A stretch of DNA of 36,176 nucleotides, taken from the NCBI GenBank assembly GCA_015057615.1, contig SVEA01000092.1, positions 1-36,176 on the forward strand, read 5' to 3'. Source of the stretch: Lachnospiraceae bacterium. GTDB lineage: Bacteria; Bacillota; Clostridia; Lachnospirales; Lachnospiraceae. The position numbers and the translations under genes are program-made. Below, in pieces: positions 1-36,046 of the stretch (positions are counted from its first letter, which is position 1; each line of letters opens with the position of its first letter). The notes under the pieces were generated by a model that was given only the letters and a program-made list of their open reading frames with translations, made no database searches and was not told the DNA's origin.

Positions 1-142
1 AAGAAATGAAATGGTCAACAAAAGGACAGAAAAAAACGTGCGGTAAATACCAGCACGATGCAATAGATAAAGTATAGGAGCTGCCGAATTTAATCAGCAG
101 TAAAGCTACCGTAGGTGGGAACTATAATTTGACGCGTGACAG
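1..142. other. Unassigned sequence left of a truncation junction, with hairpins
   Basis: No coding frame is supported here. A strong hairpin lies at 37-57 (CGTGCGGTA, two-base loop, TACC-A-GCACG), with weaker stems CTGC/GCAG at about 91-110 and CTACC/GGTGG at about 106-119. Homology to the radical SAM gene on the right starts abruptly at 143, immediately after an in-frame TGA at 137-139. This is therefore probably the end of an inserted or recombined element. I could not recognise a group II intron domain V or a transposon terminal repeat. Confidence 0.4.
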
Positions 143-889
143 AATGGGTCATTAATTGATGAGGAGATTGTCAAGAAATTAAAAATGATAAAAAATCTTG
201 ATTTTATACAGATTAGCCTAGATGGAAGAGACAATGCTACACATAACCATATTAGAGGAATAAATGGGGCTTATGAAACAGCAATTGAAACAATAAGAAT
301 GTTAGTTAATTCTAATTTTAATGTGGGTGTAGTTACTACGGTAATGAAACCCAATGTTAAGCAAATACCAGACATCTTAAATAAATTAACAGAGCTTGGC
401 GTTAACATGTTTGGAGCTAGAAGGTTTATGCCAACTGGTAAAGGTAATAATTCTGCGGATTTACTAGCAGTAAATACCGATGAATATTGTAGCCATATTC
501 ATTATTGGGTTGATAGTATAAATAACAAAGATAATAAGGTTAAATGCATAATTGAAGAGCCTTTATTAAGTATTCTAAGAGACAAGTTACCTGTTTCTTG
601 GAAATTTGATGGGTGTCAGGCGGGGGATCAATATGGAGCTATAACAGCAAATGGAGATATAAGAGCATGTATTTTCATACCAGTAAAATTAGGAAATATA
701 AAAGAACAAAATTTTAAGAGTATATGGGAAACTTCTAAAATACGAGAAAAAATTATCTTAAGGGAGTTGAATGGTAGCTGTAAAGTTTGTAACTTAATAA
801 AAGAATGCGGTGGTTGTAGAGCGGCAGCATACCTTAATACGGGTGATTATTTAGGAGATGATCCTATGTGTTTTTATAAAAATACTTAA
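140..889 (+). pseudogene. 5'-truncated radical SAM/SPASM peptide maturase
   Basis: The open frame runs from just after a TGA at 137-139. From 143 (NGSLIDEE...) it aligns residue by residue with the central part of the intact radical SAM enzyme at 3674-4687 (NGSLINEE...QISLDG). The C-terminal SPASM region is complete: a GCQAG segment, an NGDIRACIF stretch, a C-X2-C-X5-C-X2-C cluster and a final GDDPMC. About the first 100 residues are missing, including the CX3CX2C motif that binds the SAM-cleaving [4Fe-4S] cluster, so catalysis by this product is not expected. The first ATG in the surviving frame is at 185 and has no convincing ribosome binding site. It lies directly upstream of the candidate precursor peptide gene. 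Pseudogene status is inferred; a surviving SPASM-only product acting as an accessory cannot be excluded. Confidence 0.75.
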
Positions 890-970
890 CTATGCTAATA
901 CACTATAATTTATAAAATTAAATTTTCAACATATGATCTTAGAATAAGCATAATGGAGGAGGTGAAGAAA

Positions 971-1123
971 TTGAATGAAGAAAGAGAAAGAGTAAAAGAT
1001 ATCGATGTTGATGCTTGGATGGATATTAAATCTGCATCAGAAAGTTATTCCAATGATTTTGATTTGGAATTGTACTGTGAAGAACTAGGAAAGTTACGTG
1101 CTGTTGCTTGGCCTGTTATCTAG
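971..1123 (+). CDS. Candidate RiPP precursor peptide (50 aa)
   Basis: A short gene with a TTG start at 971, preceded by a strong ribosome binding site (GGAGGAGG at 955-962, spacing 8). The product begins MNEERERVKDIDVDAW and ends CEELGKLRAVAWPVI. The N-terminal two thirds is charged and acidic, as expected for a leader. The last 10-12 residues are short-chain and hydrophobic with one Trp and one Pro, and resemble a core. The peptide also has a single Cys at residue 36. It lies between two radical SAM/SPASM genes, and a strong hairpin follows its stop. What is seen is the ORF, the ribosome binding site and the context. The precursor role is inferred, I recognise no named family, and core boundaries and modified residues are unknown. 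Confidence 0.65.
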   Translation: MNEERERVKDIDVDAWMDIKSASESYSNDFDLELYCEELGKLRAVAWPVI

Positions 1124-1131
1124 CAAGCAGA

Positions 1132-1168
1132 ATATGGGGGAGGGATTAAATCCCCCATATATTTTAAT
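1132..1168 (+). terminator. Hairpin between precursor gene and maturase (partial terminator)
   Basis: ATATGGGGGA (1132-1141) pairs perfectly with TCCCCCATAT (1151-1160) around a 9-nt loop and is followed by a weak U-rich run (ATTTTAAT). It lies nine bases after the peptide stop and 33 bases before the next start. A leaky terminator or mRNA-stabilising hairpin here would let the short peptide gene be expressed above the enzyme gene, an arrangement known from other RiPP operons. Confidence 0.6.
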
Positions 1169-1192
1169 ACAAACAAGAGAGGATTGTATAAT

Positions 1193-2212
1193 ATGAAAGT
1201 GGACGACCATTACATGCCGAATCATATTAATTTTGCCATAACATACAGATGTAATGCTAAATGTAAACATTGCTCTATAAATGCAAACTATATTAGTAAT
1301 GGAAAGCAATACAATGAGATGGATAAAGAAGAGATATTTGGAACGATAGAGCAATTGGCAGATATAGGATTGATGTTTTTGGGCATAACTGGAGGGGAAG
1401 CCATTCTTCATCCTAACATATTTGAAATTATAAAGTTCAGTAAAGAAAAAGATTTGTTTGTATCAATTGCATCAAATGGATTAGCGATAAATCCTAAAAT
1501 TATAAATAAATTATGTGATTGTAAACTTGATGGTATATTAATAAGCATTGATCATGTAGATGCTAAAATACATAATAAAATAAGAGGAATTGATGGGCTA
1601 TATGACAATGCGATAAATGCAATTAAAATGTGTGTTGAAAATGGATTATATACTACGGTAGGTATGACACCAATGAAAATAAATGTTGATAGTTTTTATG
1701 ATTTAGTTGAGTTAGCTAAAAATTTAGGTGCAAACGCAGTTAATATATCTTCTTTTATTCCGACAGGGCGAGGAGAAAAAAAAGATGATTTGACGGCAAG
1801 AGAATGGAAAGAATTTACACAAAATGTAATCAAAGCAACAAAATTATATAAAGGGAAAATAGATATACATTTTCATGATCCAAGGCTTAACATATTAAAT
1901 AAAGGAACATCTACCTTTGTTGGTGATATTTCCGGATGCTTAGCCGGATATACGCATTGTTATATTTTGCCTGATGGGACTGTAACCCCTTGTGTAATGC
2001 TACCAAAAATAATTGGAAATGTAAGAAATAAGCATATAAAAGATATTTTGATTAATTATCAGAAAGAGGAAGACTTTTTTAATCGCAGTAAGATTAAAGG
2101 TAAGTGTGGAACTTGTAAGTTTAAACTTAAGTGTGGCGGTTGTAGAGCAGTAGCATATGCATATACATCTGATGATCACGAAGAAGATAGCAGATGCTGG
2201 TTTATAACATAA
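1193..2212 (+). CDS. Radical SAM/SPASM peptide-modifying enzyme (339 aa)
   Basis: A radical SAM protein with the cluster motif C20-X3-C24-X2-C27 (RCNAKCKHC) and the SAM-contacting GGE at 67-69. It carries a C-terminal SPASM-type cysteine-rich domain: GCLAGYTHC, DGTVTPC, then CGTC...CGGCRAVAY and a last Cys near the end. SPASM enzymes of this size (PqqE, AlbA, NirJ/AhbD relatives) use auxiliary iron-sulfur clusters to modify peptides or tetrapyrroles. The neighbouring small peptide gene favours peptide modification. Start: ATG at 1193, 10 bases after AGAGG. An in-frame TTG at 1184 sits too close to that site. The protein is a close paralogue of the one at 3674-4687. Substrate and reaction are not determinable from sequence. 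Confidence 0.85.
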   Translation: MKVDDHYMPNHINFAITYRCNAKCKHCSINANYISNGKQYNEMDKEEIFGTIEQLADIGLMFLGITGGEAILHPNIFEIIKFSKEKDLFVSIASNGLAINPKIINKLCDCKLDGILISIDHVDAKIHNKIRGIDGLYDNAINAIKMCVENGLYTTVGMTPMKINVDSFYDLVELAKNLGANAVNISSFIPTGRGEKKDDLTAREWKEFTQNVIKATKLYKGKIDIHFHDPRLNILNKGTSTFVGDISGCLAGYTHCYILPDGTVTPCVMLPKIIGNVRNKHIKDILINYQKEEDFFNRSKIKGKCGTCKFKLKCGGCRAVAYAYTSDDHEEDSRCWFIT

Positions 2213-2347
2213 TAAAATATTTTAGACATTTGACACTGGTCTAATATAAAAATATTGTATATGTTATTAGTAACTTTGACCTCTAGTTGTGCTACTATAT
2301 TAGATCATGCCATAAGAAGATAAGGTTAATGTGAAGGAGCGATATAA

Positions 2348-3610
2348 TTGTTAAAATTCGTTCAAATAACAATTAAAAAAATACTAAACATTAAAGAAAC
2401 AGATAGAAATTTCACAAAATTGATGCTTTCTCATATGATATCGAATCTGGGAGATTATTTTTATTTAGTTAGTATACTTTGGGTTGCATCTAGTATTGCT
2501 GAAGATGCATTGTATTTAAGTACAATTAATTTATTTGATACTTTACCAGGATTGATATTTGGTTTTTTTATTGGGGCAATAATAGATAAATTAAATAAAA
2601 AAAGGATAATGGTAAATTCTGATTTTATTCGAGCCATCATTATCTTTGTTCTAATAGTAGTTTTTTCATTAGGCAAACTAGAAATATGGCATATATACAT
2701 TGCTACATTTCTTTTAGAATTATTTAATAGAATTTTTTCAACATCTCAATTGGCAATTATACCCGAAATAATAGAAAAGGAAAATCTACAGAAAGCTAAT
2801 TCATATTCCAATTTGATCACCCAAATAATGGGTGTGATTGGAAATTCAATAAGTGGTCTTGCTATTAGTGTATTTGGGATACTGTTTTCATTAATAGCTA
2901 ATGCACTATCATTTATATTTTCAGGTATTTTGCTATCAACACTTAGAACAAAAAATATTAATAATTGTGAAAACAGTGATATAGATAATAAAATAAGTTT
3001 ATCAAAAGTATTTAGAGAAATTATTGAAGGCTTTGTTTATTTAAAAAGTAAGCCAATAATATTACTATGCCTTTCTATGTCTTTTTCATTAAGTATAGCT
3101 TTATCCTCAGTAATATTGATTCCTCTTTATATAAAAAACGATTTATCCTTAGGAGCTGCATATTATGGAGTTATTGAAGGAAGTTGTGCATTCAGTATGA
3201 TAATATTTTCCTTGGTCTTAACTAAAAAAGTTATAAAAAGACCAGTTTTATATATGGCGTTAAGTTCAATAATAATTGGAAGCAGTTTTATATTTATGTC
3301 AATTAATCAAAATATTATAATCTTATTTATTGGTAGATTAGTTATGAGTACCATGCTTTCATTGTTTAATATAATTTTTATTACTCAGTTACAGAAATAT
3401 GTAGAATCAAGTTATAGCGGCAGAGTATTTACAATCAGTTATTTCTTTTCTTCAATTCTCTACCCGATATTTTCTATTATATCAGGATATATAGCAACAA
3501 AAACAAGTATTAGATTTTCTTGGCTTATTGTTGGATCTATAGTTACTATTATAAACGTTATTAATTTATTTGTAACACAGACAGTAATAGGAACAGAGGG
3601 TGAAATGTAA
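2348..3610 (+). CDS. MFS transporter, probable product exporter (420 aa)
   Basis: A very hydrophobic protein with about 12 predicted membrane segments. It has MFS-type features: paired helices, a basic loop after the second helix (DKLNKKR, near residues 81-87) and a mid-protein hydrophilic loop (about 195-225). It most resembles the macrolide/drug efflux group of MFS carriers. It starts at TTG 2348, supported by AAGGAG at 2334-2339 (spacing 8), the same unusual start codon as the nearby peptide gene. Its position between two radical SAM genes suggests it exports the modified peptide or gives self-protection. That role is inferred from location, and import of another solute remains possible. 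Confidence 0.8.
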   Translation: MLKFVQITIKKILNIKETDRNFTKLMLSHMISNLGDYFYLVSILWVASSIAEDALYLSTINLFDTLPGLIFGFFIGAIIDKLNKKRIMVNSDFIRAIIIFVLIVVFSLGKLEIWHIYIATFLLELFNRIFSTSQLAIIPEIIEKENLQKANSYSNLITQIMGVIGNSISGLAISVFGILFSLIANALSFIFSGILLSTLRTKNINNCENSDIDNKISLSKVFREIIEGFVYLKSKPIILLCLSMSFSLSIALSSVILIPLYIKNDLSLGAAYYGVIEGSCAFSMIIFSLVLTKKVIKRPVLYMALSSIIIGSSFIFMSINQNIIILFIGRLVMSTMLSLFNIIFITQLQKYVESSYSGRVFTISYFFSSILYPIFSIISGYIATKTSIRFSWLIVGSIVTIINVINLFVTQTVIGTEGEM

Positions 3611-3673
3611 ATTATAATAGATTAAATATTGAACATCAAAATGCATTGAAAATAACCTATTAGGAGATCAGCT

Positions 3674-4687
3674 ATGAAATATAAAAATTATGGATTTTCG
3701 GTTTTCCCATTTTATGTTACATTTTGTATAACATCAAAATGTAACGCAAATTGTATTCATTGCTCTAGCGGATTACTTAATGACACAAAAGGGGATTTGA
3801 GTACAGATAAGATATTATCAGTTATAGAAGAGCTTAATAATTGTGGCATTCTGCAAATTGGGTTTTCTGGAGGAGAACCACTGTTACATCCTGATTTTAA
3901 AGTAATAGCAAAAAGAGCCGTTGATTTAGGTATGGTTGTAGGAATAGGGACAAATGGTAGCTTAATAAATGAAGAAACAATTAGACTCATTAAGGAAATT
4001 GGAATCCATAGAGTGCAGATAAGTTTAGATGGTAATTGTGAAGACATTCATGATACATTTAGAGGTGTAAAAGGTCTTTTTGAAGTAGCATTAAGAGCTA
4101 TTGAAGGTTTAGTAGAATCAAATATTGAAGTTAAAGTATGCATGACTCCTACTAGACGCAATTATAAAGAACTGGAAGGTCTTATTGATAGATGTGTACA
4201 GATGGGGGTAAATGGATTTAATCTATCTCAATTTGTTCCTGTTGGTAAAGGGTCAAAGGATTTAGATTTAGAACCTAATGAGTGGAAAAATATTTTAGAG
4301 TTATGGTATAGAAAAAGTCAGGAATATGTTAATCAAATTTATTTCACGAGCCATGAAGCACAACTAATACTTATTGATGATAGTTTATATAATAAAGGAG
4401 GTTTTCGAGGTTGTCAGGCTGGTTATGGGGTTGGCTGTATAAAAGCTGATGGAACGGTAATACCTTGTGTAATGTTAGATAAGGCAGTGGGGAATATAAA
4501 AGAAAAAACATTTTACGAAATATGGAAGGATAGTGATGTCTTAAATAAATTACGAGATAAATCAAACTATAAATTGCCATGTAAAGAATGCGGTTTTCTT
4601 CAAAAATGTGGCGGATGCAGAGGGGTGGCATATGGTTTGACAGGAGATTATCTGGCTGGTGATCCTAGGTGCTGGTTACATAATTAA
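3674..4687 (+). CDS. Radical SAM/SPASM peptide-modifying enzyme, second paralogue (337 aa)
   Basis: The CX3CX2C motif is at C23, C27 and C30 (KCNANCIHC), followed by FSGGEPLLHPDF. The SPASM region includes GCQAGYGVGC, ADGTVIPC, and CKEC...KCGGCRGVAYGLTGDY, ending in DPRCW. Length and domain order match the paralogue at 1193-2212, and the truncated copy at 140-889 is also a close relative. The start ATG has an AGGAG site (3661-3665) about 8 bases upstream. The gene sits 63 bases after the transporter and probably closes the first transcription unit. Two intact paralogues may act on different residues of one peptide, or one may serve a peptide lost with the truncated copy. The specific reaction is unknown. 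Confidence 0.85.
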   Translation: MKYKNYGFSVFPFYVTFCITSKCNANCIHCSSGLLNDTKGDLSTDKILSVIEELNNCGILQIGFSGGEPLLHPDFKVIAKRAVDLGMVVGIGTNGSLINEETIRLIKEIGIHRVQISLDGNCEDIHDTFRGVKGLFEVALRAIEGLVESNIEVKVCMTPTRRNYKELEGLIDRCVQMGVNGFNLSQFVPVGKGSKDLDLEPNEWKNILELWYRKSQEYVNQIYFTSHEAQLILIDDSLYNKGGFRGCQAGYGVGCIKADGTVIPCVMLDKAVGNIKEKTFYEIWKDSDVLNKLRDKSNYKLPCKECGFLQKCGGCRGVAYGLTGDYLAGDPRCWLHN

Positions 4688-4818
4688 ATATAATTTCTCT
4701 GAATTAGACAGTTCTAATTGCCACACAGATTGAAAATTGAATATTGACAATTCTGGGAATAACAAGAGAATTTTGTATGTGAAATAGACATAGTGGCCAA
4801 TGTGCTTTAAAATAAGTA

Positions 4819-4848
4819 TTGTATGATACTGTTATTAAACGATATAAT
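4819..4848 (+). promoter_or_regulatory. Candidate promoter for the 4855-5395 RNA segment
   Basis: TTGTAT (4819-4824) and a perfect TATAAT (4843-4848) are separated by 18 bases. Transcription would begin near 4855, at the front edge of the hairpin-rich segment, after an AT-rich stretch with no gene. The -35 box matches only four of six consensus bases. Confidence 0.4.
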
Positions 4849-4854
4849 TCTCTG

Positions 4855-5395
4855 TGAAAAGCCCAGCTGAAGTTGGTATTGAGTTGTGAAAACTTTGGTT
4901 TGCAGAGCAGCAATCAGTAATGCTCTTTTCGCGTTGGTAATTCAGACGCTTGCTGCACAGACAAGAGGAAAGTCCTGACAGGGGCGCCGTCATCAGCGAG
5001 GGTAAGGTGTTTACTGTCAATCGACCCGGAAAATACTGAGTGAAGCAGGAACTGCTCGTAATAAAGACTGAATACTAGGGAAAAGGTATGGGAGAGTTTT
5101 GTTGGATGGTATTCAAAAAAAGGAAGTAGCTGGTAATGGAAAGTAGATAGGAACGTAGTATACAGGAAGGGGACCTTGGTTATGGACCGGGTTTTTTAGA
5201 AATGGTCAGCCATAAGCTGCTTCGTAATAAAGAAATCAAGATGCTAAAGTTCAATAATGGCTTTCCAAGATAGGAGAATGTGTTAGGATAAAAGTTTTAA
5301 AAAATCGAACACAAATGTGTCTTGATAGGTGGTATGACCGCCGGAAGTTACAGGTGACAAAAATCGCCTTCAAGCTGAAAAAATAAAATCAATCG
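4855..5395 (+). ncRNA. Candidate large structured non-coding RNA
   Basis: This gene-free stretch has no usable ORF but many local stems: AGAGCA/TGCTCT (4901-4926), CTTG/CAAG just before GAGGAAAGTCC (about 4952-4962), ACACA/TGTGT (about 5309-5320), GGTGGT/ACCGCC (about 5329-5343), GGTGA/TCGCC (about 5353-5368), and a long AAAATCAAT/ATTGATTTT hairpin (about 5386-5415). GC rises here relative to the flanking AT-rich genes, as expected for folded RNA. GAGGAAAGTCC preceded by GGTAATTC resembles the conserved 5' element (CR-I) of bacterial RNase P RNA. The other conserved RNase P segments, notably the ACAGAA...GGCTTA type 3' half of P4, are not recognisable. A mobile structured RNA (HEARO-like) or a decayed ribozyme are alternatives. 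Boundaries are approximate. Confidence 0.4.
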
Positions 5396-5515
5396 GCTTT
5401 GCTGCGAATTGATTTTGCCTTGAAAAAAGTGTGGATTTATAAAAATGGAATTTGGAAGCCAGTAAAATCAAGGTTAAGAGATTCCGAGAAGTTATATAAA
5501 GGGAGGACAATTACA

Positions 5516-5785
5516 ATGAATAAGCTTTTAAAAGTATCTCTAAATGGTAAGATTAAATGGAGAAATGAATATGATTTTTTTACAGTCTATCATTTCGAAA
5601 CAGATGATTTGTTTAAGGTTCCTAAAACAGCAATAGATATATTAGAAGTTGCAGATGGAACAAAATCAATTGATGAAATTATCAATTATGTTATTCGAAT
5701 AAACAACCTTAATACTTCTGTTTATCAAAAGATATATGAATATATTGATTTACTTAATCAAAAGGAATTAATAAATTTTACTTAG
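5516..5785 (+). CDS. PqqD-like RiPP recognition element protein (89 aa)
   Basis: A small stand-alone protein. Its C-terminal half (about residues 38-85: AIDILEVADGTKSIDEII, then a second helix and LLNQKELI) follows the PqqD pattern of a winged helix that binds leader peptides for radical SAM maturases. The N-terminal part carries the expected beta strands (KVSLNGKIKWR, FTVYHFE). Start ATG 5516 has GGGAGG at 5501-5506. The open frame extends upstream to 5399, but that part is hairpin sequence. It is 13 bases upstream of the HemN-like radical SAM gene and probably co-transcribed with it. Assignment is by pattern and context, not by alignment. Confidence 0.65.
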   Translation: MNKLLKVSLNGKIKWRNEYDFFTVYHFETDDLFKVPKTAIDILEVADGTKSIDEIINYVIRINNLNTSVYQKIYEYIDLLNQKELINFT

Positions 5786-5798
5786 GGGTAGGTATACT

Positions 5799-7085
5799 AT
5801 GAAAAAAGAGTCTAATTGGCAGAAAGCTATTGATGAAGGAGCAGGAATTGTTGGTAATTATCCTATAGTATTGAGTTCTATAAGACAAGAAGACATCTGG
5901 GGAAAAAAGAATTCTGTAATATATATTCATATTCCTTTTTGTAAAAAGGTCTGTTCATTCTGCTGTTATAACTTAACTAAGAACATATTTAATCTTGAGA
6001 TAGAGGAAAGATATGTTAATGCTCTTATAAAAGAAATTAGTGCCTCTTCTAGTGATAATGAAAATATTGTTTCAATATATATGGGGGGAGGGACACCAAC
6101 AATTCTTACTGAAAAAAGTTTATATAATATTTTTAATGAAGTTTTTAAAAAAAATAAATTTAATAATATTAAACAAATTACAGTTGAAACAAATCCGATT
6201 GTATCTACAGTAAACAAATTAAGTGCTCTAAGAGAAATAGGCGTAAATAGACTTAGCTTTGGGTTGCAATCTGATAATGATAATATGCTCAAAATGCTTA
6301 ATTGCCCACATAATTATAATGATTTTATTAAAGCATATAATACAGCTAGACAATTAGGATTTGATTCTATTAATGTCGATTTACTTTATAGGCTTCCTGG
6401 ACAATCCCTATCTGATTGGATAAATACAGTAAAAAATATCATTGAGTTAAAACCTGAACATATAAGTATATATAGTTTAGGGATAGTAAAATCTACTAAA
6501 TTATATAGTGATCTAATAAATGTAAGTGTGCCTGATGTACCAGATCTTTTTACAGAACTTGAGATGAGAAAAGCAGTGAAATTATTACTACAAGAGCATG
6601 GTTATAAGATTAATACAATGGATGAGTTTTCTAAGAATGGGCATGAAAACCTATACTCTCAAGTAAGTCGTCTTGGTAATACTTTTGCATATGGAGCTGG
6701 AGCTAGAGGTGTATATAATAGTTATATCTATAATAATGCAGAAGATATTGATGACTATATAAATAAGTTAAAAATATACAATAATTCTATTAATTATGGA
6801 ATGAAGATGTCAGGAGAAGAAAAAAGAGCAAGATATATGTCATTAATGCCTTATTATCTAGGCTTTTCAAAGAATGAATATTTTAATATTTTTGGAATGA
6901 AAGTAGAATTGCTATATAAAGATATACTAAATGAATTAATAAAACAAGACTTGCTAACAGAAACCCCAAATTGCTATAAATTAACAGATAAAGGGGAAGT
7001 ATATAGCATAAAAGTAAGTAAGCTTTTTTATTCTGAACAACAAATGCGAATTGAGAAAATTATTAGATCATATCAAGATTTATAA
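5799..7085 (+). CDS. HemN/HemW-like radical SAM enzyme (428 aa)
   Basis: It contains YIHIPFC48-KKV-C52-SF-C55-C, the CX3CX2C motif in the coproporphyrinogen-oxidase-like setting. It also has YMGGGTPT (the SAM-binding glycine motif), VETNP, RLSFGLQS, and NVDLLYRLPGQS, all hallmarks of the HemN/HemW family. A HemN_C-like C-terminal region (about 340-428) is present. Family members include haem-pathway dehydrogenases, HemW haem chaperones, and class C radical SAM methyltransferases/cyclases from natural-product clusters. With a PqqD-like gene 13 bases upstream and carbamoyltransferase genes downstream, a biosynthetic role looks more likely than haem synthesis. No other tetrapyrrole gene is nearby. 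GGGGTAGGTATACT before the ATG supplies the ribosome binding site. Confidence 0.75.
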   Translation: MKKESNWQKAIDEGAGIVGNYPIVLSSIRQEDIWGKKNSVIYIHIPFCKKVCSFCCYNLTKNIFNLEIEERYVNALIKEISASSSDNENIVSIYMGGGTPTILTEKSLYNIFNEVFKKNKFNNIKQITVETNPIVSTVNKLSALREIGVNRLSFGLQSDNDNMLKMLNCPHNYNDFIKAYNTARQLGFDSINVDLLYRLPGQSLSDWINTVKNIIELKPEHISIYSLGIVKSTKLYSDLINVSVPDVPDLFTELEMRKAVKLLLQEHGYKINTMDEFSKNGHENLYSQVSRLGNTFAYGAGARGVYNSYIYNNAEDIDDYINKLKIYNNSINYGMKMSGEEKRARYMSLMPYYLGFSKNEYFNIFGMKVELLYKDILNELIKQDLLTETPNCYKLTDKGEVYSIKVSKLFYSEQQMRIEKIIRSYQDL

Positions 7086-7170
7086 TACTAATAAAAAGCA
7101 AAGAATTAATTTTAACTAGAATGTTTTAGCAAATTCTTGTTTAATATTTTAGTAAGAAATGGAGGATTCG

Positions 7171-7800
7171 ATGTTTAGTCCTTTTCTAGGTAAAGTATAT
7201 GAGATTGAAAATTTAAATAGAATATTAGTTTATTATAATGATCAGTTAATAATTAGTTATTATGATGATATTTGCAAAATAGCAGCTAATTCAATAATGT
7301 CAGGTAAAATTATAGGATGGTTTCAAAATGAAAGTGAAGTTGGCCCAAGGGCACTTGGCAATCGAAGTATATTAGCAGACCCCAGAAATCCTCAGATGAA
7401 AGACATTTTAAATAAAAAAGTAAAATTTCGTGAAAGTTTTCGACCTTTCGCTCCGGCTGTTCTGTGGGAATATCAAAAAGAATATTTTAATATTGACATT
7501 CCTTCTTTGTATATGTTAATGATCAGTGATGTTCTACCTGAAAAACAGCTTACTATACCGGCGGTTACTCATGTTGATGGCACGGCAAGATTGCAGACTG
7601 TTCAAAAAGAACTATGCCCGATTTTTTATAATCTTATTTATGAGTTTTATAAAATAACTAATATTCCTATGGTTATCAATACTTCATTCAATCTAAAAGG
7701 AGAACCTATAGTAGAAAGACCAGAAGATGCAGTAGAGTGCTTCTTAAATACTAATATTGATGAATTATACATTGGAAATTACTTATTTATAAAGAAATGA
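7171..7800 (+). CDS. Carbamoyltransferase C-terminal domain as a separate protein (209 aa)
   Basis: The product corresponds to the C-terminal domain of NodU/CmcH/TobZ-type O-carbamoyltransferases. It begins at the interdomain SPFLGKVY-like segment. It then has GWFQNESEVGPRALGNRSIL (about 49-68), ADPR, KFRESFRPFAPAV, VDGTARLQTV, NTSFNLKGEPIV and a terminal DELYIGNYLF, all typical of the family. Start ATG 7171 is preceded by GGAGG with spacing 5; an upstream in-frame ATG at 7159 overlaps that site. The N-terminal Kae1-like domain is absent from this ORF and is encoded by the next gene, so the domain order on DNA is reversed. The pair probably forms a heterodimeric carbamoyltransferase using carbamoyl phosphate and ATP. 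The acceptor is unknown, perhaps the modified peptide. Confidence 0.8.
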   Translation: MFSPFLGKVYEIENLNRILVYYNDQLIISYYDDICKIAANSIMSGKIIGWFQNESEVGPRALGNRSILADPRNPQMKDILNKKVKFRESFRPFAPAVLWEYQKEYFNIDIPSLYMLMISDVLPEKQLTIPAVTHVDGTARLQTVQKELCPIFYNLIYEFYKITNIPMVINTSFNLKGEPIVERPEDAVECFLNTNIDELYIGNYLFIKK

Positions 7801-7817
7801 AGGTGGATGGTGGAATC

Positions 7818-8801
7818 ATGTATATATTAGGTTTGGGTGGTTCAGGGCATGATTTTTCGGCATGCATTTGTAATGAATATAATATATTAGGATATATTGA
7901 AGATGAGAGAATAACAAGAAAGAAACATTCTTTTTATCGGGGTAACATGAATACTATTTCAAAAATGAGTTCTGCATTTTATCTTTGTGAAAAAATTGGA
8001 ATCGAATTAGAGGATATAGATTATGTTATTGTAAACAACATTCTATTGAATGATTTTTATTCAAAGTATTTTGATAAAAACAATGTTATAAGTATTAATC
8101 ACCATTTAGCCCATGCATTTAGTGCATTTTATCCATCTGAATATGAAGAAGCAGCCATTTTAATAATTGATGGTGCAGGCGATATGATTGAAGACAATAT
8201 ATATGAAACGATTTCGTTTTGGCGTGGCAATAGCGAAGGTATACATAATATAAACACTTTTTTAGGAAAGGTTGTTTCGACTAACATATACAATGATGCA
8301 TGTATACCGGTTGAAAATTCAATTGGCGGTTTTTATAGAGTTATAACTAAACTTTTAGGATTTGGATTGTTTGATGAAGGTAAAACTATGGGGTTAGCAT
8401 CGTATGGAAATGATAAGTATTATGATGTTATGAAAAGCTTGATATCGATAAATAAAGATGGATCTTTTATAATTTCGAGTAATTCTTATAAAGAAATTAT
8501 TAACCTTTCGAGGAATATAATTACGTTTCAAGAGAAGGCTGATTTTGCTTTTGCTGCTCAAAAAATAACGAATGAAGCTGTTTTAAATGCAGCTATAGCA
8601 TTAAAAAAAATATCAGGGTGTAATAATCTATGTATAGCTGGTGGAGTGGCTTTAAATAGTGTTGCAAATTATGAGATTTATAAGAATGGATTATTTAGGA
8701 ATATATTTATACAACCAGCAGCAGGTGATTCTGGAACAGCTATTGGGGCGGCATTATATGGACTTAATATGGTTAAATCAGGTAATATCTACTGTCATTA
8801 G
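7818..8801 (+). CDS. Carbamoyltransferase N-terminal (Kae1-like) domain as a separate protein (327 aa)
   Basis: It opens with YILGLGGSGHDFSACI, followed by EDERITRKKH. The metal/nucleotide motif HHLAH is at 95-99, then LIIDGAGD, EGKTMGLASYG, AGGVALNSVAN and PAAGDSGTAIGAALYGL. These are the ordered motifs of the Kae1-like ASKHA domain of NodU/CmcH carbamoyltransferases. The ORF stops just after GTAIGAALYGL, exactly where full-length relatives continue into the C-terminal domain, which here is the preceding gene. Start 7818 gives the canonical N-terminus; an in-frame ATG at 7797 would overlap the preceding stop (ATGA) and add seven residues. The split falls cleanly at the domain boundary, with no leftover half-domain, which argues against random decay. 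Confidence 0.8.
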   Translation: MYILGLGGSGHDFSACICNEYNILGYIEDERITRKKHSFYRGNMNTISKMSSAFYLCEKIGIELEDIDYVIVNNILLNDFYSKYFDKNNVISINHHLAHAFSAFYPSEYEEAAILIIDGAGDMIEDNIYETISFWRGNSEGIHNINTFLGKVVSTNIYNDACIPVENSIGGFYRVITKLLGFGLFDEGKTMGLASYGNDKYYDVMKSLISINKDGSFIISSNSYKEIINLSRNIITFQEKADFAFAAQKITNEAVLNAAIALKKISGCNNLCIAGGVALNSVANYEIYKNGLFRNIFIQPAAGDSGTAIGAALYGLNMVKSGNIYCH

Positions 8802-8857
8802 TATAGTTATGAGCCTTTGGGATATTTTTTATAATACTAGCTCTTCTATTATGATTT

Positions 8858-8896
8858 AAGGATTGAATGGAAAAGCTTCAATCCTTATGTTTCTAT
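8858..8896 (+). terminator. Hairpin terminator after the carbamoyltransferase genes
   Basis: AAGGATTGAA (8858-8867) pairs with TTCAATCCTT (8877-8886) and is followed by ATGTTTCTAT. The stem is perfect over ten bases, while the U-run is weak. It closes the AT-rich island transcription unit. Confidence 0.5.
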
Positions 8897-8955
8897 AGTT
8901 TAAAAGATAGATATATCAAGAAACCTTGATTTCAGATTGCGGTTAGTTTGGGAAT

Positions 8956-9270
8956 GGGGCTGTTGCAAAATAGATGAGTAATCTATGGAGCAAGAGCTTC
9001 TTGTTTTCTTGTAAGCAGTAAACCACTTGTCTATCATAAAATTTTAGCCACCTTGTAAGAGCATGTTCAATATACTTGTTTATGTTTATTCCCAAGATCG
9101 CTATAACTCCCATTCAAATTGAAACTTCCTGTCGCAGAGATATTATCTTCATGTGGCTCTTGAAAGGTCAAAAAGCTCCCGATCACTCTACGATTGCTAG
9201 GTTTCATCAAAAATATTTGGAGGATTGCATCGAAGATCTCTTTTATCAACTCCTTGAAGAATCATGACAT
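8956..9270 (+). pseudogene. Decayed IS1182-like transposase fragment
   Basis: Residues encoded at about 9118-9264 read as CRRDIIFMWLLKGQ then APDHSTIARFHQKYL. This is the diagnostic stretch near the N-terminal domain of IS1182/IS5-like (DUF772) transposases. No start, no catalytic DDE region and no intact downstream frame remain. GGGGCTGTTGCAAAA at 8956-8970 looks like an insertion-sequence left end (inference). I found no matching right inverted repeat before 9776. The fragment borders the radical SAM/carbamoyltransferase island and could mark how the island arrived or was trimmed. Confidence 0.6.
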
Positions 9271-9775
9271 TCAATTACCGGATTAATAGGAATTGATTAA
9301 TTGGCACTTTGCTCGGAAAGGTATGCTTTATTTTTCCGGATTAGGATGCGCTCAGCATGCATTATCATGCTGGAGAGATAGAAGAGGGAGGGTAGAAAAA
9401 GGATTAGATCATTTCCCATCTGAAAACAAATGTCAACGGAGTATATTACATATTGATAAGGACACATGGTATTACAGCACAGTTTAAGAGACGAAGTGGG
9501 TAGAGATAGAATGATTATATGAGAAAATGATTGCGTCTATAGTATTGCAGGACAATCCAAACAAAAAGAAGAAGCAAATATCATATTAATCTACGAAAAG
9601 TATTTATGGGATGAATCATCCGGGATAAATTAGGATTACAAGAATAGTACTAAATTAAATAAGTGTTCAAGCCGATAAAAAAGTGTTATTATAGTAGAAA
9701 CCATGCAAATGCATGTTTGGAGTTGGAGGCTAAAACCGCAGAAATGAGAGGATAATGGCATACCGATATAATTGA
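9271..9775. other. Gene-free decayed stretch
   Basis: Short broken frames only. A 64-codon frame at 9293-9487 has no ribosome binding site and no recognised motif. The stretch is probably the rest of the decayed insertion sequence, but I cannot match it to transposase motifs. Confidence 0.4.
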
Positions 9776-9823
9776 TAAAAAATACTGTAATGCTTATCGT
9801 TATAGAAGTAAGCATTACAGTAT
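9776..9823 (-). terminator. Intrinsic terminator of the minus-strand membrane protein gene
   Basis: A perfect 15-bp stem (ATACTGTAATGCTTA at 9782-9796, TAAGCATTACAGTAT at 9809-9823) is followed on the minus strand by TTTTT. It lies 24 bases beyond the stop of the gene at 9847-10296. Confidence 0.85.
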
Positions 9824-9846
9824 CAATAGAAGGTGCTATGTAAGTG

Positions 9847-10296
9847 TTAGGGTGTCGGTGAAGGAGTAACCGTTGCCTTATCGAGAGCTGCTTTAATTGC
9901 ATCCAGTAAAAGCTGCTGCGTATATTTACTTTCCTCCTTTAATTCAACCTGTTCGATCGGAACATCTTCATATAACTGGGTCGCAATATCTTCTAGGGAG
10001 GGCTCTATAAGAGGAAACATAGTCGTGACGGTTTCATCGATATTGATAATGCTAACCTTATTAATATGATCCTTATCTACCACAACCTCTAGATTGAGTG
10101 TTGTATCGCTTAATGCGATGGAGGAAGTCCATACACCTGCCCTATAAATTTCAGAATTTTCTGAAACGGTCTTATCTTTTTTATTCGGCCAGAACATAAA
10201 GATAAGTAGAAGAATCAGAAGAATGCCTAAGGCGGCAAATATCACCGTATATATGATTTCTTTTAATTGGACAACGACTATTTTTGTTTTTGCCAT
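9847..10296 (-). CDS. Membrane-anchored hypothetical protein (149 aa)
   Basis: One transmembrane helix near the N-terminus (about residues 13-36, VIFAALGILLILLLIFMFW), followed by a positively charged flank and an extracytoplasmic domain of about 110 residues. The tail is Thr/Pro-rich (TVTPSPTP). The domain pattern (YRAGVWTSSIAL..., VVVDKDHINKVSI, then QQLLLDAIKAALDKA) recalls small exported FMN-binding-like domains, but the flavinylation motif is not seen, so function is unassigned. GGAGGATAGAT immediately upstream gives a clear start. It is transcribed divergently from addB and is the first gene of the higher-GC core region. Confidence 0.75.
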   Translation of the reverse strand: MAKTKIVVVQLKEIIYTVIFAALGILLILLLIFMFWPNKKDKTVSENSEIYRAGVWTSSIALSDTTLNLEVVVDKDHINKVSIINIDETVTTMFPLIEPSLEDIATQLYEDVPIEQVELKEESKYTQQLLLDAIKAALDKATVTPSPTP

Positions 10297-10401
10297 ATCT
10301 ATCCTCCGAGCATGATTTGCTTCATGTCTTAATCTTATTATATATTATTATACAGTAGAATAATTTATGCAGATAAATTCCAAAGGATGGAGGGATATTT
10401 T

Positions 10402-13400
10402 ATGTCCTTGCAGCTATTCTTAGGAAGTGCCGGTTCCGGTAAGTCCTATCAGCTATACCGTGAGGTAATTAAACAATCAAAATTAAATATAGACACGAAT
10501 TATCTGGTTATTGTACCGGAGCAGTTCACCTTACAGACACAGAAGGATATTGTCAGCATGCACCCAGAGCATGGAGTGATGAATGTGGATATCTTAAGTT
10601 TCCTGCGCTTTGCGTTCCGTATCTTTGATGAAGTAGGAGGAAATGATTATCCGATCTTAGAGGATACGGGGAAGAGCATGGTGCTGCGTAAAGTGGTTGC
10701 TAAGAACCATAAGGATTTGATCCTGTTTGGCTCCAATGTAAAGAAGCCAGGCTTTATCGGGGAATTAAAATCCCTGTTGTCCGAACTGTTCCAATACAAT
10801 GTTATGCCGGAGGATTTTGATAAAATGCAGGAAATTGCGGCAAAGAAACCAGTTCTAAAAGCGAAGCTTGCCGACATTTTAACCGTATATAATGGCTTTC
10901 AGGCATTTATGAAGGAGCGCTATATCACAGCAGAGGAAACCCTTGTGGTATTAAATAAGATTGTCGATCAGTCCGAGTGGTTAAGAAACAGTGTGATCTG
11001 CCTGGATGGCTTTACCGGATTTACCCCCTGCCAGTATCAGTTGCTGGCGAAAATGATGCAGTATGCCAGAAAGGTCATGGTGACCGTTGCGATTGATCCG
11101 TCGGAAGCCTTAATGACGCCCGTAGAGGATCACCAGCTGTTTGGCTTAAGTAAGAAGACGATCCAAAAGCTATATCAGATTGCGAAGGATCATGATATCG
11201 AGATTGAAAAGCCGGTATACGCAGAGAAATGTAATAAAAGCCGGGTACCGTACCGTTTCCTTCATTCTCCTGCCCTTGCTTCTCTGGAGCATAATTTGTT
11301 TCGTTACCCCTATCAGGCTTATGAAGAGGAGCAGGAAGATATTACGATCCATGAGACAAAGGATGCCGAAGCAGAAGTGGCTTTTGCAGCCAGGGAAATT
11401 AATCGGCTCGTAAGAGAGGAAGGCTACCGCTATCAGGATATTGCGGCGGTTACGGGGGATATTGAGAACTACGGCAGGATTGCAAAGCAGATATTTACCA
11501 GGATGGGAATCCCCTGCTTCATTGATTATAAAAAGGATATCTTAAATAATCCCTTCGTAGAAATGCTTCGTTCGGTCATTGCTATCGTTACCGAGGATTA
11601 TAGCTATGAAAGTGTCTTCCGCTATCTGCGGACCGGTCTGTCCGAGGTGGAGAAGGAGGAGATCGACCTTCTGGAAAATTATATCCTTGCAACGGGAATC
11701 CGGGGAAGCAAGCGATACAGGGAACCATTTACCAGGAACTTCCGCAGCCGGGAGAAGGTGGACTTTGAGCGCATCAATCAGGCGCGGGAGCTGCTGATCA
11801 CAGAAGTGCAGCCCCTCTATGAGGTGTTAAAGGATAAGGAAAAGACACTGAAGGATTATACGGCAGCACTCTATGAACTGGGCGTCCGGCTGCACATAGA
11901 ACAGAAGCTGGAGGAGAACCGACAGAGCTTCCAGGAGAAGAATCAGGCACTGGCGGCAAAGGAATTTGAACAGGTATACAAAATCGTTATGGAGCTTTAC
12001 GACCAGATGGTACTGCTGCTGGGTTCCGAGCATGTTACGCTAAAGGAATTTGGCGAGATTTTAGAAACCGGATTAATTGAAGTCAAGATGGGTCTAATTC
12101 CCCCAGGTGTGGATGAAATCGTGGTGGGAGATACGCAGAGAACCCGTTTGAAAGATATTAAGGTACTGTTCTTTATGGGGATGAATGAGGGAATTGTGCC
12201 TAAATCCCTATCGAGCGGTGGAATTCTTTCCGATATTGAGCGGGAGCTGTTGATAAGTCATGACATTGAACTGGCTCCGACGAAACGGCAGCAGGCATTT
12301 ACGGAGCAGTTTTATATCTATCTTGGCATGACCAAACCGAAGGATAAGCTTTATCTTACCTATCATAGAGTGAACGGAGAAGGAAAATCCGTGAATCCTT
12401 CCTATTTGATCGGGAAAATGTTTCAGCTGTTTCCAAAGATCACGGTCCGAATTGAAGATGAGACCAAAGAGGATGTCGAGCATATCTTAAGGGATCAGGG
12501 GCTTACCTATCTTGCCGATGGACTGCGACAGTTACAGCAGAAAGAGGTTACTAATCTATGGAAGGAATTATTCCTATATTATAAATCCGGGGAGGAGACG
12601 TATCCGGTATTAACTAAGCTTATAAAGGGCGCCTTTTATACCAATCAGGAGAAGGGAATCTCAGAGCAGGCGGCAAAGCTTCTGTATGGCGAGGAGCTAA
12701 AGGGGAGCGTGACAAGACTGGAGCGGTATGCCGGCTGCGCCTTCGCCCATTTCATGTCCTACGGGCTGTCCCTGGAGGAGCGAAGGGAATATAAGCTTGC
12801 CATACCGGACATCGGAAATATCTTTCATAATGCGATTGACAATTTCTCGAAGAGACTGGATACCGGAGAATATACCTGGCACACCATTCCGGATGAAGTG
12901 CGGGAGACCTGGGCAGCCGAGTGTGTTGAGCAGGCAGTGGAGGAATATGAGAATACCTTTCTTCGGAGTACGAAGAGAAATGAATACTTAATTACCCGGA
13001 TGAAACGAATTACAGTAAGAACCCTGTGGGCGCTCTGCAACCAGGTTAAGCAGGGAGTCTTTGAACCAGCAGGATATGAGATGCCCTTCTTTCATGTCCC
13101 GGATTCGGTCCTTTCGCTACAGGGACGGATTGATCGCCTGGATCTGTACGAAGAGGAAGATAAGGTATATGTGCGCGTGATTGACTATAAATCGGGCAAT
13201 ACCTTCTTTGATATTAACAGCATCTACTATGGCTTACAGCAGCAGCTCTCCGTCTATCTCAGCGCCGCCATAGAATATCTGAAAAAGAGATATCCGCAGA
13301 AAGAGGTAGTACCTTCCGGTATCTTCTATTACCATATTGATGATCCGATCGTTGCAAAGACGGAGCAGGTGGAGGAGGAAATCTTTAAAAGCCTTCGGAT

Positions 13401-33510: not shown

Positions 33511-33548
33511 CGGTACTTTGGCTCCGTATTTTGGAGCCTTATGTACCG
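33511..33548. repeat. Nested hairpin upstream of broken ORFs
   Basis: CGGTAC...GTACCG encloses GGCTCC...GGAGCC. It overlaps the first ATG of the following frame, so it is probably a terminator or repeat rather than part of a gene. Confidence 0.45.
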
Positions 33549-34003
33549 TTACGTAATGCTACTAAGCGAAAGCGTCTCCGAATTCGGATACATTTGTCAA
33601 AATCATAACATGGTATACATGGTGGGTGTGAATAGTAACACAAATTTCAAGAGTAATACTATTATGGCGAAACTCGTATATGTCTACGAAGGTGTAGAAA
33701 GAGAAAGCACGAAGAGTAAACGTTGGAAGCTGGTAAATACTCACTATTTCAGCGGTCTGTATGAAAGAGAACGCAATACGGACCTGTGGCTTGAAGTAGC
33801 TGATTACATAGATGCATCATACTGATATGGGGTATACTGTACCGCCAAACGGAACGTTAATTTTAAAAGTTTATTTATCAAGCGTTGAGCTTGAATCAGG
33901 TCGTTATAAATTGGTAAAGGAAGCATGGAACAACAAAAGCACATTCATATTCGAGGCCGAATTTGAATTGAAGAAAATTTTCAATTATGAAATTAATCTG
34001 TAA
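33541..34003 (+). pseudogene. Frameshifted fragments of a bacterial Ig-like-domain protein
   Basis: Two overlapping frames, 33541-33825 and 33812-34003, together read as one domain. The first gives YMVGVNSNTNF... and ends in DASY. The second gives PPNGTLILKVYLSSVELESGRYKLVKEAW. The pattern PPNGT...L-SGRYKLVKE resembles the end of a bacterial Ig-like domain found in clostridial exported proteins (inference). No ribosome binding site, signal peptide or upstream domain is present. A one-base slip around 33812-33825 would rejoin them. Two real overlapping small genes are possible but unlikely. Confidence 0.4.
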
Positions 34004-35092: not shown

Positions 35093-35184
35093 TTAGGATA
35101 GAATCGATGATGGTGTAAACGAAAAAGCAGCTTTAGCTTACCAGTAACTGCCCTTTCGTTTACATCATTTTCGATTTGTCCTAA
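35093..35184. repeat. 92-bp palindromic element abutting the truncated transposase
   Basis: TTAGGATAGAATCGATGATG (from 35093) pairs imperfectly with TCATTTTCGATTTGTCCTAA (ending 35184). The inner arms TGTAAACGAAA/TTTCGTTTACA are perfect. The transposase frame stops just inside its right edge. Confidence 0.55.
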
Positions 35185-36046
35185 TTGAACAAAGTAAGCG
35201 TCCGGATAGCCGATGGGGATTCAAGCATAAGACTGCAGTTTCTAAAGTAGATGGTAAGAAGTACCTTTCCACCTTTACGGCCTTCTACAGAATCCATCTC
35301 CACGATTGGGACATCGGGGTTAGCTTCAATGCAGGTCTCAAAATCTTCATAAGTTCGTCCTACATGACATTGTTTATCAACTCTTACAAGCTTCTTGTGT
35401 GAACGGGTATGATATCGTACTTTTCTAGGAAGGTCAATGTTATCAACTGATAAAAGACCTGCATCAATGTAGTTATAAATAGTTTTTTCATCAAGCATGA
35501 TGTCATCCGCATTGTTAACACAGACCATGTGTACAGACTGTCCTTGCTTTATAAGGGGTGACATGATTTCATCAATGCGTTTGAGTTCTGACGGAGTAAT
35601 CGCTATCCCTTGACGGCTCTCAGAACGAATTGCTTCATACTCCTTCTGTGCATTCTTGGCATCATAAAGATGTCGCTCCAGCTTACAGCGTAAGCGGGTA
35701 TCACAGCCGTTACAGACGTATGGTGGTTTATTTAGCTTATGACATGTAAGTTCCATAAAGTCAGGGCAATGCTCATAACTGTTCCGATATGAGCATTCCT
35801 TGCAAGAACCGTGATATGGGTGTTTGCATGGTTTACATGCCTTTCCCATATGAGACAGCTAGTGCGATTAGCACAGGGATTATAGCGTCCTTTACGAACT
35901 GTTTGACTGTGGTTCTTAACTTCTTTTGAGATGGTAGAGGGATCTTTTCCTAGTATTCTTCCAATCTCAGTAAATGAAGCTCCTTCTCTGAGGGAAACTT
36001 CTATAGTGGCTCTTTCATCAAGAGTAAGGTGTGCGTTCTTTGCCAT
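35181..36046 (-). pseudogene. Frameshifted and truncated IS30-family transposase
   Basis: The N-terminal frame (36046 down to 35732) has LTLDERATIEVSLREGASFTE and IGRILGKDPSTISKEV, the IS30 helix-turn-helix. It ends in a shifted reading. The second frame (35849 down to 35181) continues with a Cys-rich CKPCKHPYHGSCKEC...C segment and reaches VEMDSVEGRKGGKVLLTIYF, which holds the first catalytic Asp. A one-base indel at about 35850-35865 separates them. The protein then ends in unrelated residues, so the second Asp and the Glu of the DDE triad are missing. It is inactive. Confidence 0.85.

Follow-up and report, generated by a model that had tools for sequence, protein, structure and literature searches.

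What does the AT-rich left end of contig SVEA01000092.1, from the Lachnospiraceae bacterium assembly GCA_015057615.1, make, and do its genes belong to one pathway? The window analysed here is this whole contig of 36,176 bases (C73), part of a genome of 4.07 Mb in 215 contigs. A preliminary description had placed between 140 and 8801 a 50-residue peptide, three radical S-adenosylmethionine (SAM) enzymes of the SPASM type (the first truncated), a major facilitator superfamily (MFS) protein, a PqqD-like protein, a HemN-like enzyme and a carbamoyltransferase in two pieces. Listing of the open reading frames (ORFs) and profile searches confirm this gene set, the PqqD-like protein being the sole weak identification. 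The base composition bears out the AT-richness, with a GC content of 0.26-0.32 across most of 1-9000 (0.35-0.37 around 4001-5500) and of 0.38-0.48 over most of the remaining window. It is likely that the genes form a biosynthetic operon for a ribosomally synthesized and post-translationally modified peptide (RiPP) of the radical SAM/PqqD kind, unmatched to any characterised system. The operon is probably a single one, and it is likely to have undergone some decay. Its parts are as follows.

1-140: 3'-terminal stretch of a repeated mobile element interrupting rSAM1 (identical sequence at the start of C127 and of C100)
140-886, plus strand: rSAM1, SPASM radical SAM protein that has lost its N-terminal region and with it the CxxxCxxC cluster site (PF04055, PF13186, alignment)
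971-1123, plus strand: precursor peptide gene, 50 amino acids, TTG start, tail EELGKLRAVAWPVI (ORF, ribosome site, tail match)
1193-2212, plus strand: rSAM2, SPASM radical SAM enzyme (PF04055 8e-25, PF13186 1e-9)
2348-3610, plus strand: MFS exporter (PF07690 1e-28; TIGR00900 207.6 bits against a cut-off of 319.6)
3674-4687, plus strand: rSAM3, SPASM radical SAM enzyme (37% identity to the Indioceanicola enzyme L078:14986-16050)
4688-5497: insertion sequence, decayed and with an internal deletion, lying between rSAM3 and the PqqD-like gene (17-nucleotide terminal inverted repeats)
5516-5785, plus strand: PqqD-like protein, probably a RiPP recognition element encoded on its own (profile matches weak and under the cut-offs)
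5799-7085, plus strand: HemN-like radical SAM enzyme (profiles in the STM4012/HemW/HemN range)
7171-7800, plus strand: stand-alone C-terminal (YrdC-like) domain of a NodU/TobZ-type carbamoyltransferase (PF16861 2e-69; ORF from 7159, likely start 7171)
7797-8801, plus strand: stand-alone N-terminal (Kae1-like) domain of the carbamoyltransferase (PF02543 6e-38; GdmN 3e-25)
8858-8886, plus strand: hairpin after the last gene, a possible terminator (inverted repeat AAGGATTGA/TCAATCCTT, read from the sequence without a tool score)

The peptide gene begins with a TTG codon at 971, directly preceded by the ribosome-site sequence GGAGGAGG, and ends with the stop codon at 1121-1123. That it encodes a RiPP precursor is suggested above all by a distant locus. 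When rSAM3 was compared by tblastn with 72,556 plasmid records, 478 matched; among the best 30 of these 478, a plasmid of the ocean-sediment bacterium Indioceanicola profundi came first with the lowest E-value (7e-66, 37% identity), and the other matches listed were mostly annotated NirJ or TIGR04053. In the Indioceanicola cassette (NZ_CP030128 72268-76702) the gene for a SnoaL-like precursor of 175 amino acids is followed, all in one direction, by those for a SPASM enzyme, PqqD (a weak match to TIGR04302, 27.3 bits against a cut-off of 100), a radical SAM enzyme of the B12-binding type and another SPASM enzyme. Its SnoaL-like protein has the C-terminus EDLGHLSAMAWMVA, the window peptide EELGKLRAVAWPVI. 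These tails agree at 8 of 14 positions and run in register to the stop codon, giving the shared motif LGxLxAxAWxV with its conserved Trp. The ungapped score of the window tail is 72 with itself and 40 with the Indioceanicola tail; the next best is 18 (mean -14.8, standard deviation 7.7). The comparison set consists of the 14-residue C-termini of 11,669 distinct open frames in 129 loci. These loci are a non-random set, most having been retrieved because they matched a radical SAM enzyme, a carbamoyltransferase or a repeat, and many have flanks of only about 1.5 kb. The arrangement is similar too: the peptide gene stops 69 nucleotides before a SPASM gene in the window and the precursor gene 51 nucleotides before one in Indioceanicola. 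A precursor gene adjoining a SPASM radical SAM gene is thus conserved outside this genome, at one other locus only. The earlier reading of the island as a RiPP locus is strengthened by this recurrence of the tail beside related SPASM enzymes and PqqD.

The tail pattern occurs in 4 of 395 genomes, namely the window's own and three in which no in-frame or credible precursor carries it; the reversed pattern, used as a control, gave two matches among those listed. An open frame ending in FGVLSAMAWRC, near the tail motif, lies at about 1501 of a fetched locus (L118, genome G158), where it overlaps a longer ORF and is probably due to chance. Among the plasmid records the window peptide found no match, the SnoaL-like protein and the B12-type radical SAM enzyme found only themselves, and the second Indioceanicola SPASM enzyme found itself and a Halomontanus pseudo-SAM protein. 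Viral contigs yielded no relatives, and the genome contigs two distant SPASM relatives, with no such tail in the DNA fetched around them. Directly after the Indioceanicola cassette (L078 16397-19494) lie genes for Toll-interleukin receptor, TIR and SIR2 proteins.

The SPASM enzymes of the two loci are related as well. rSAM1, rSAM2 and rSAM3 all match PF04055 and PF13186, and seven Cys residues of the SPASM region are invariant in all five aligned rows (the three window enzymes and the two from Indioceanicola). A tree built from 48 rows unites rSAM2 and rSAM3 with both Indioceanicola enzymes in a single clade (96/82), within which rSAM3 is sister to the second Indioceanicola enzyme (99/84), while the sampled NirJ2 enzymes occupy a separate clade of 32 rows (100/96). 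Removal of six long-branched rows, L036 and L037 among them, leaves a 42-row tree in which all five window and Indioceanicola enzymes fall in one clade (96/83). Matches to rSAM3 at an E-value of 1e-30 were found in 11 of 195 genomes, and in a phylum-wide search 147 of 398 genomes match at 1e-65, the window's own being included in both counts.

The radical SAM domains of rSAM2 and rSAM3 start at residues 16 and 19. Since this leaves no room for an N-terminal recognition domain, a separate PqqD protein is to be expected. rSAM1 is a fragment: it covers PF04055 only at positions 85-164 of 166 but PF13186 completely. Contigs C127 and C100 open with the same 141 bases as the window, without a single difference, and diverge straight after them. 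It follows from this shared start that the window begins inside a repeated mobile element that cuts rSAM1, whose coding frame is open again from about base 140. When the genome was searched for the missing 5' half with the N-terminal 97 residues of rSAM3, 9 matches came up, 2 in the window and 7 elsewhere, none of which, as listed, resembles it. A group II intron at 1-140 was also considered; Rfam gave no support for it.

The PqqD-like protein scores 15.1 bits with PF05402 (cut-off 23.4) and 20.0 with TIGR03859 (cut-off 46), both weak matches below cut-off. Its identity to the Indioceanicola PqqD is 24%, with an E-value of 3e-5 for the single comparison, and a search of solved structures with it returned no relative. 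The HemN-like protein next to it carries the CxxxCxxC motif (CKKVCSFC, read from the sequence) and reaches 205.4 bits with TIGR00539 (HemW), exactly the cut-off of 205.4. A housekeeping role as HemW was considered and rejected, the genome's HemW having been found on contig C153, adjoining hrcA, at 322.3 bits. Because that gene is already present, the HemN-like protein is a second, divergent copy. Its best non-self match among 195 genomes has 35% identity (214 bits, compared with 953 for itself), and its closest solved relatives are the coproporphyrinogen oxidase HemN and the methyltransferase NocN.

The carbamoyltransferase has both catalytic domains of the NodU/TobZ type with their conserved motifs, but instead of the fused N-then-C order it is encoded by two genes in swapped order, the C-domain gene coming first and the two overlapping by ATGA. 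Alignment with three fused relatives places the split at the inter-domain linker; both pieces are intact and keep their conserved positions. The C-domain matches the carbamoyltransferase structure 7xb6 in the PDB at 1e-48. It finds matches in 13 of 392 genomes of the order (the window's own included), at 24 places, and by open-frame length the window holds the only stand-alone C-domain ORF (214 amino acids); one of 350 amino acids stops at a contig end and the others measure 454-730. A fused relative is present elsewhere in the same genome, on contig C109. The clean cut between the domains, together with the reversed gene order, makes the locus a natural test of whether carbamoyltransferase domains can function as separate subunits.

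Two other loci deserve mention. In a genome of the same family (G459; L072 8583-17057) genes for a 103-residue protein, a DUF6365 protein, radical SAM enzymes (four, of which three are of the SPASM type) and a fused carbamoyltransferase all run in one direction. The 103-residue protein scores 30.6 bits, below the cut-off of 40, with the NHLP-clan RiPP family NF038399, and the run is possibly a further peptide cluster with a carbamoyltransferase. Another genome (G134, contig C56; L069 715-6699) holds PqqD, three radical SAM-like ORFs related to rSAM2 and rSAM3, a weak peptidase S24-like match and transporter-like ORFs. It is likely to be another peptide cluster, judging from its genes.

Whether the left and right halves of the island belong together turns on the DNA between 4.7 and 5.5 kb. 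This gap is single-copy in the genome and bears 17-nucleotide terminal inverted repeats at its ends (4688-4704 and 5481-5497) that are 88% complementary. Stretches of it have matches in 5 of 99 genomes, a count that includes the window's own. In a genome of the same genus the matches fall at the two ends of a roughly 1.8-kb element, which is bounded by comparable repeats (L131 483-499 and 2255-2271) and contains a 515-residue ORF with weak transposase-domain matches below the cut-offs (PF01609, 18.7 bits against 23; PF05598, 15.7 against 23.1). We interpret the gap as a copy of this insertion sequence that has undergone an internal deletion. It starts directly 3' of the rSAM3 stop codon (4685-4687) and ends 18 nucleotides 5' of the ATG of the PqqD-like gene, and within these 18 nucleotides lies GGGAGG, which resembles a ribosome site. 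A structured RNA was entertained for the gap and rejected in favour of the insertion-sequence remnant, as a search of 1-10500 against Rfam up to an E-value of 1 found nothing there (the sole match, at 9784-9821, is a chance-like miRNA) and the folding z-score of 4835-5420 against shuffles is -1.35. Since a decayed insertion sequence, and not an original boundary, parts the halves, they were probably one operon of tightly spaced genes. This continuity is probable from the anatomy of the locus; no uninterrupted relative was found.

Transposon remnants also occur elsewhere in the window. A fragment of a DUF772 transposase lies just to the right of the operon at 9076-9264 (PF05598, 36.8 bits). Farther away, 33541-33822 weakly matches UPF0236, below cut-off, and on the minus strand at 35181-36046 an HTH_38 transposase-like ORF overlaps a second ORF that has no Pfam match; this may be a broken transposase.

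How far, then, do other explanations account for the same genes? AhbD and NirJ2 rank first among the NCBIfam matches of all three SPASM proteins, which would be expected if these were heme or heme d1 enzymes and the small ORF a product of chance. The scores are 146-223 bits, far under the cut-off of 500, whereas five of five sampled relatives (four phylum-wide hits and one from the search of 195 genomes) exceed the NirJ2 cut-off at 522-633 bits; the sampled NirJ2 relatives branch apart in both trees, and the peptide tail recurs at another locus. On profile scores and trees the heme-pathway reading was rejected, and we regard it as highly improbable. It is unlikely, if less so, that two unrelated pathways merely adjoin, a peptide cassette (the peptide, rSAM1-3 and the MFS protein) and a PqqD/HemN/carbamoyltransferase cassette with a different substrate, for example a sugar. 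The Indioceanicola locus, which has neither a HemN nor a carbamoyltransferase gene, would suit such a division, as would the relatives of the carbamoyltransferase found in sugar and other contexts and the 0.8 kb of other DNA between the halves. These 0.8 kb are, however, the decayed remains of an insertion sequence, which follow the rSAM3 stop at once and end 18 nucleotides short of the PqqD start. Moreover, PqqD, which is absent from the left half and accompanies the SPASM genes in Indioceanicola, sits in the right half. The proposal that all the genes serve one pathway is therefore upheld in part: the distant locus supports the union of peptide, SPASM enzymes and PqqD, while the HemN-like enzyme and the carbamoyltransferase are joined to them only by the continuity of the operon, and the distant locus, lacking both, has a B12-type radical SAM enzyme instead.

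A further view accepts the origin of the island in a RiPP operon and differs from the reading we favour in present activity only: the operon would be decaying and making nothing. The interruption of rSAM1, the insertion-sequence remnant inside the operon and the transposase remnant downstream all speak for this. The other genes are nevertheless open frames, several of them with ribosome-site-like sequences, and both halves of the carbamoyltransferase keep their conserved positions, so we give a dead island little credence. Several points do weigh against an active radical SAM/PqqD peptide operon. The broken rSAM1 and the transposon remnants within and beside the genes mean that the operon may be decaying. 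No protease gene was seen among its genes. The PqqD match is below cut-off and the predicted structure of the protein is poor (predicted local distance difference test score 51). A single related locus was found, which has no gene for HemN, a carbamoyltransferase or an MFS protein. On plasmids, the carbamoyltransferase has relatives in sugar and other gene contexts (3 neighbourhoods of 313 matching records), so the presence of such an enzyme alone is no proof of a peptide substrate; the G459 run, with its NHLP-like protein, radical SAM genes and carbamoyltransferase, points the other way. In addition, the 48-row tree puts rSAM1 outside the four other enzymes, in a weak group (92/74) with the long rows L036 and L037, and the sister relation of rSAM3 to the second Indioceanicola enzyme, seen in that tree, is lost in the 42-row tree. 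Because of these long branches, which also drew a program warning, the placement of rSAM1 and the order inside the clade are tentative.

Taking the radical SAM/PqqD peptide operon as the likely reading, its gene content and anatomy, the shared tail and the kinship of the SPASM enzymes allow a chemical course to be conjectured at each step. The stand-alone PqqD-like protein would hold the 50-residue precursor by its leader and hand it to the SPASM enzymes, two now and formerly three, which would modify the LGxLxAxAWxV tail, with the conserved Trp or its surroundings as the most likely site. To judge from relatives such as NocN, the HemN-like enzyme may introduce another modification at carbon, for instance a methyl group. 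The two-piece carbamoyltransferase would most plausibly transfer a carbamoyl group to the only Lys among the last 14 residues, much as StdF carbamoylates its Lys, or else to a hydroxyl, and the MFS protein would export the product. The position of this Lys is taken by His in Indioceanicola, where the cassette has no annotated carbamoyltransferase; this one comparison fits carbamoylation of the Lys. A bolder proposal, which we put forward tentatively as possible but doubtful, is that the LGxLxAxAWxV tail defines a new RiPP class, present on an alphaproteobacterial plasmid and in this genome, with short or SnoaL leaders and with several SPASM enzymes and an accessory radical SAM enzyme acting on the tail, and that the product here is carbamoylated by the domain-swapped enzyme, making it the first such radical SAM peptide. 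In any event the tail motif is a handle for finding more members.

How does the operon compare with known systems? The Indioceanicola cassette shares the precursor tail and two related SPASM enzymes with it and encodes a PqqD where the window has its weakly PqqD-like protein, but has a SnoaL-like leader on its precursor, a B12-type radical SAM enzyme instead of the HemN-like one and no annotated carbamoyltransferase or MFS gene. Mycofactocin biosynthesis (MftA/B/C) is alike in the radical SAM change made on a precursor peptide and in its small chaperone; the tail of MftA differs from that of the window precursor, and the window enzymes score 82-144 bits with the MftC profile against a cut-off of 265. 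GeoRSP unites SPASM enzymes with a PqqD family protein, a pairing that the window resembles through its PqqD-like protein, but its profile GeoRSP_rSAM gives the window enzymes only 106-183 bits (cut-off 400). Pyrroloquinoline quinone (PQQ) biosynthesis (PqqA/PqqD/PqqE) also has a small precursor and a SPASM enzyme without its own recognition domain, together with a stand-alone PqqD comparable to the window's PqqD-like protein, and PqqE needs PqqD in trans, according to the part of the source consulted (PMC8326336). The window differs from it in having two or three SPASM enzymes and another precursor; PqqE profile scores are 52-136 bits against a cut-off of 381, and no other PQQ gene was recognised in the island. 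The statement that no characterised RiPP class matches the locus is consistent with these profile searches and with the open-licence literature. There, no paper was found that names GeoRSP with the other terms, and nothing on SnoaL/NTF2-like leaders with radical SAM RiPPs or on carbamoylated radical SAM RiPPs, which is weak evidence. The passages available of two papers (PMC9062424, PMC11002830) contain no occurrence of the word carbamoyl, and a third, the only paper found to name radical SAM, carbamoyltransferase, precursor peptide and PqqD together, mentions recognition elements fused to carbamoyltransferases (PMC12710340).

Among the closest known systems are also crocagin and std, both RiPP pathways with a carbamoyltransferase. 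Such enzymes are "exceedingly rare" in RiPP biosynthesis according to the std authors, for whom, in the portion of their preprint at hand, crocagin is the only earlier well-characterised case (PMC13174530, preprint). CgnI is the crocagin carbamoyltransferase, as given in the excerpt consulted (PMC10070186), and in std StdF converts Lys to homocitrulline, as the same portion of the preprint has it (PMC13174530). The earlier suggestion that a carbamoylated radical SAM peptide would be new may thus hold, narrowly: carbamoylated RiPPs exist, and the carbamoylation proposed here is predicted from the genes. Unlike the present operon, the std cluster has no radical SAM enzyme among the genes named in the part of the preprint available, and its StdF carries a fused peptidase domain. 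In crocagin biosynthesis, CgnB, CgnC and CgnE build the core, according to the abstract. Set beside these two pathways, the window locus offers a ready way to learn whether one peptide can receive both radical SAM chemistry and a carbamoyl group.

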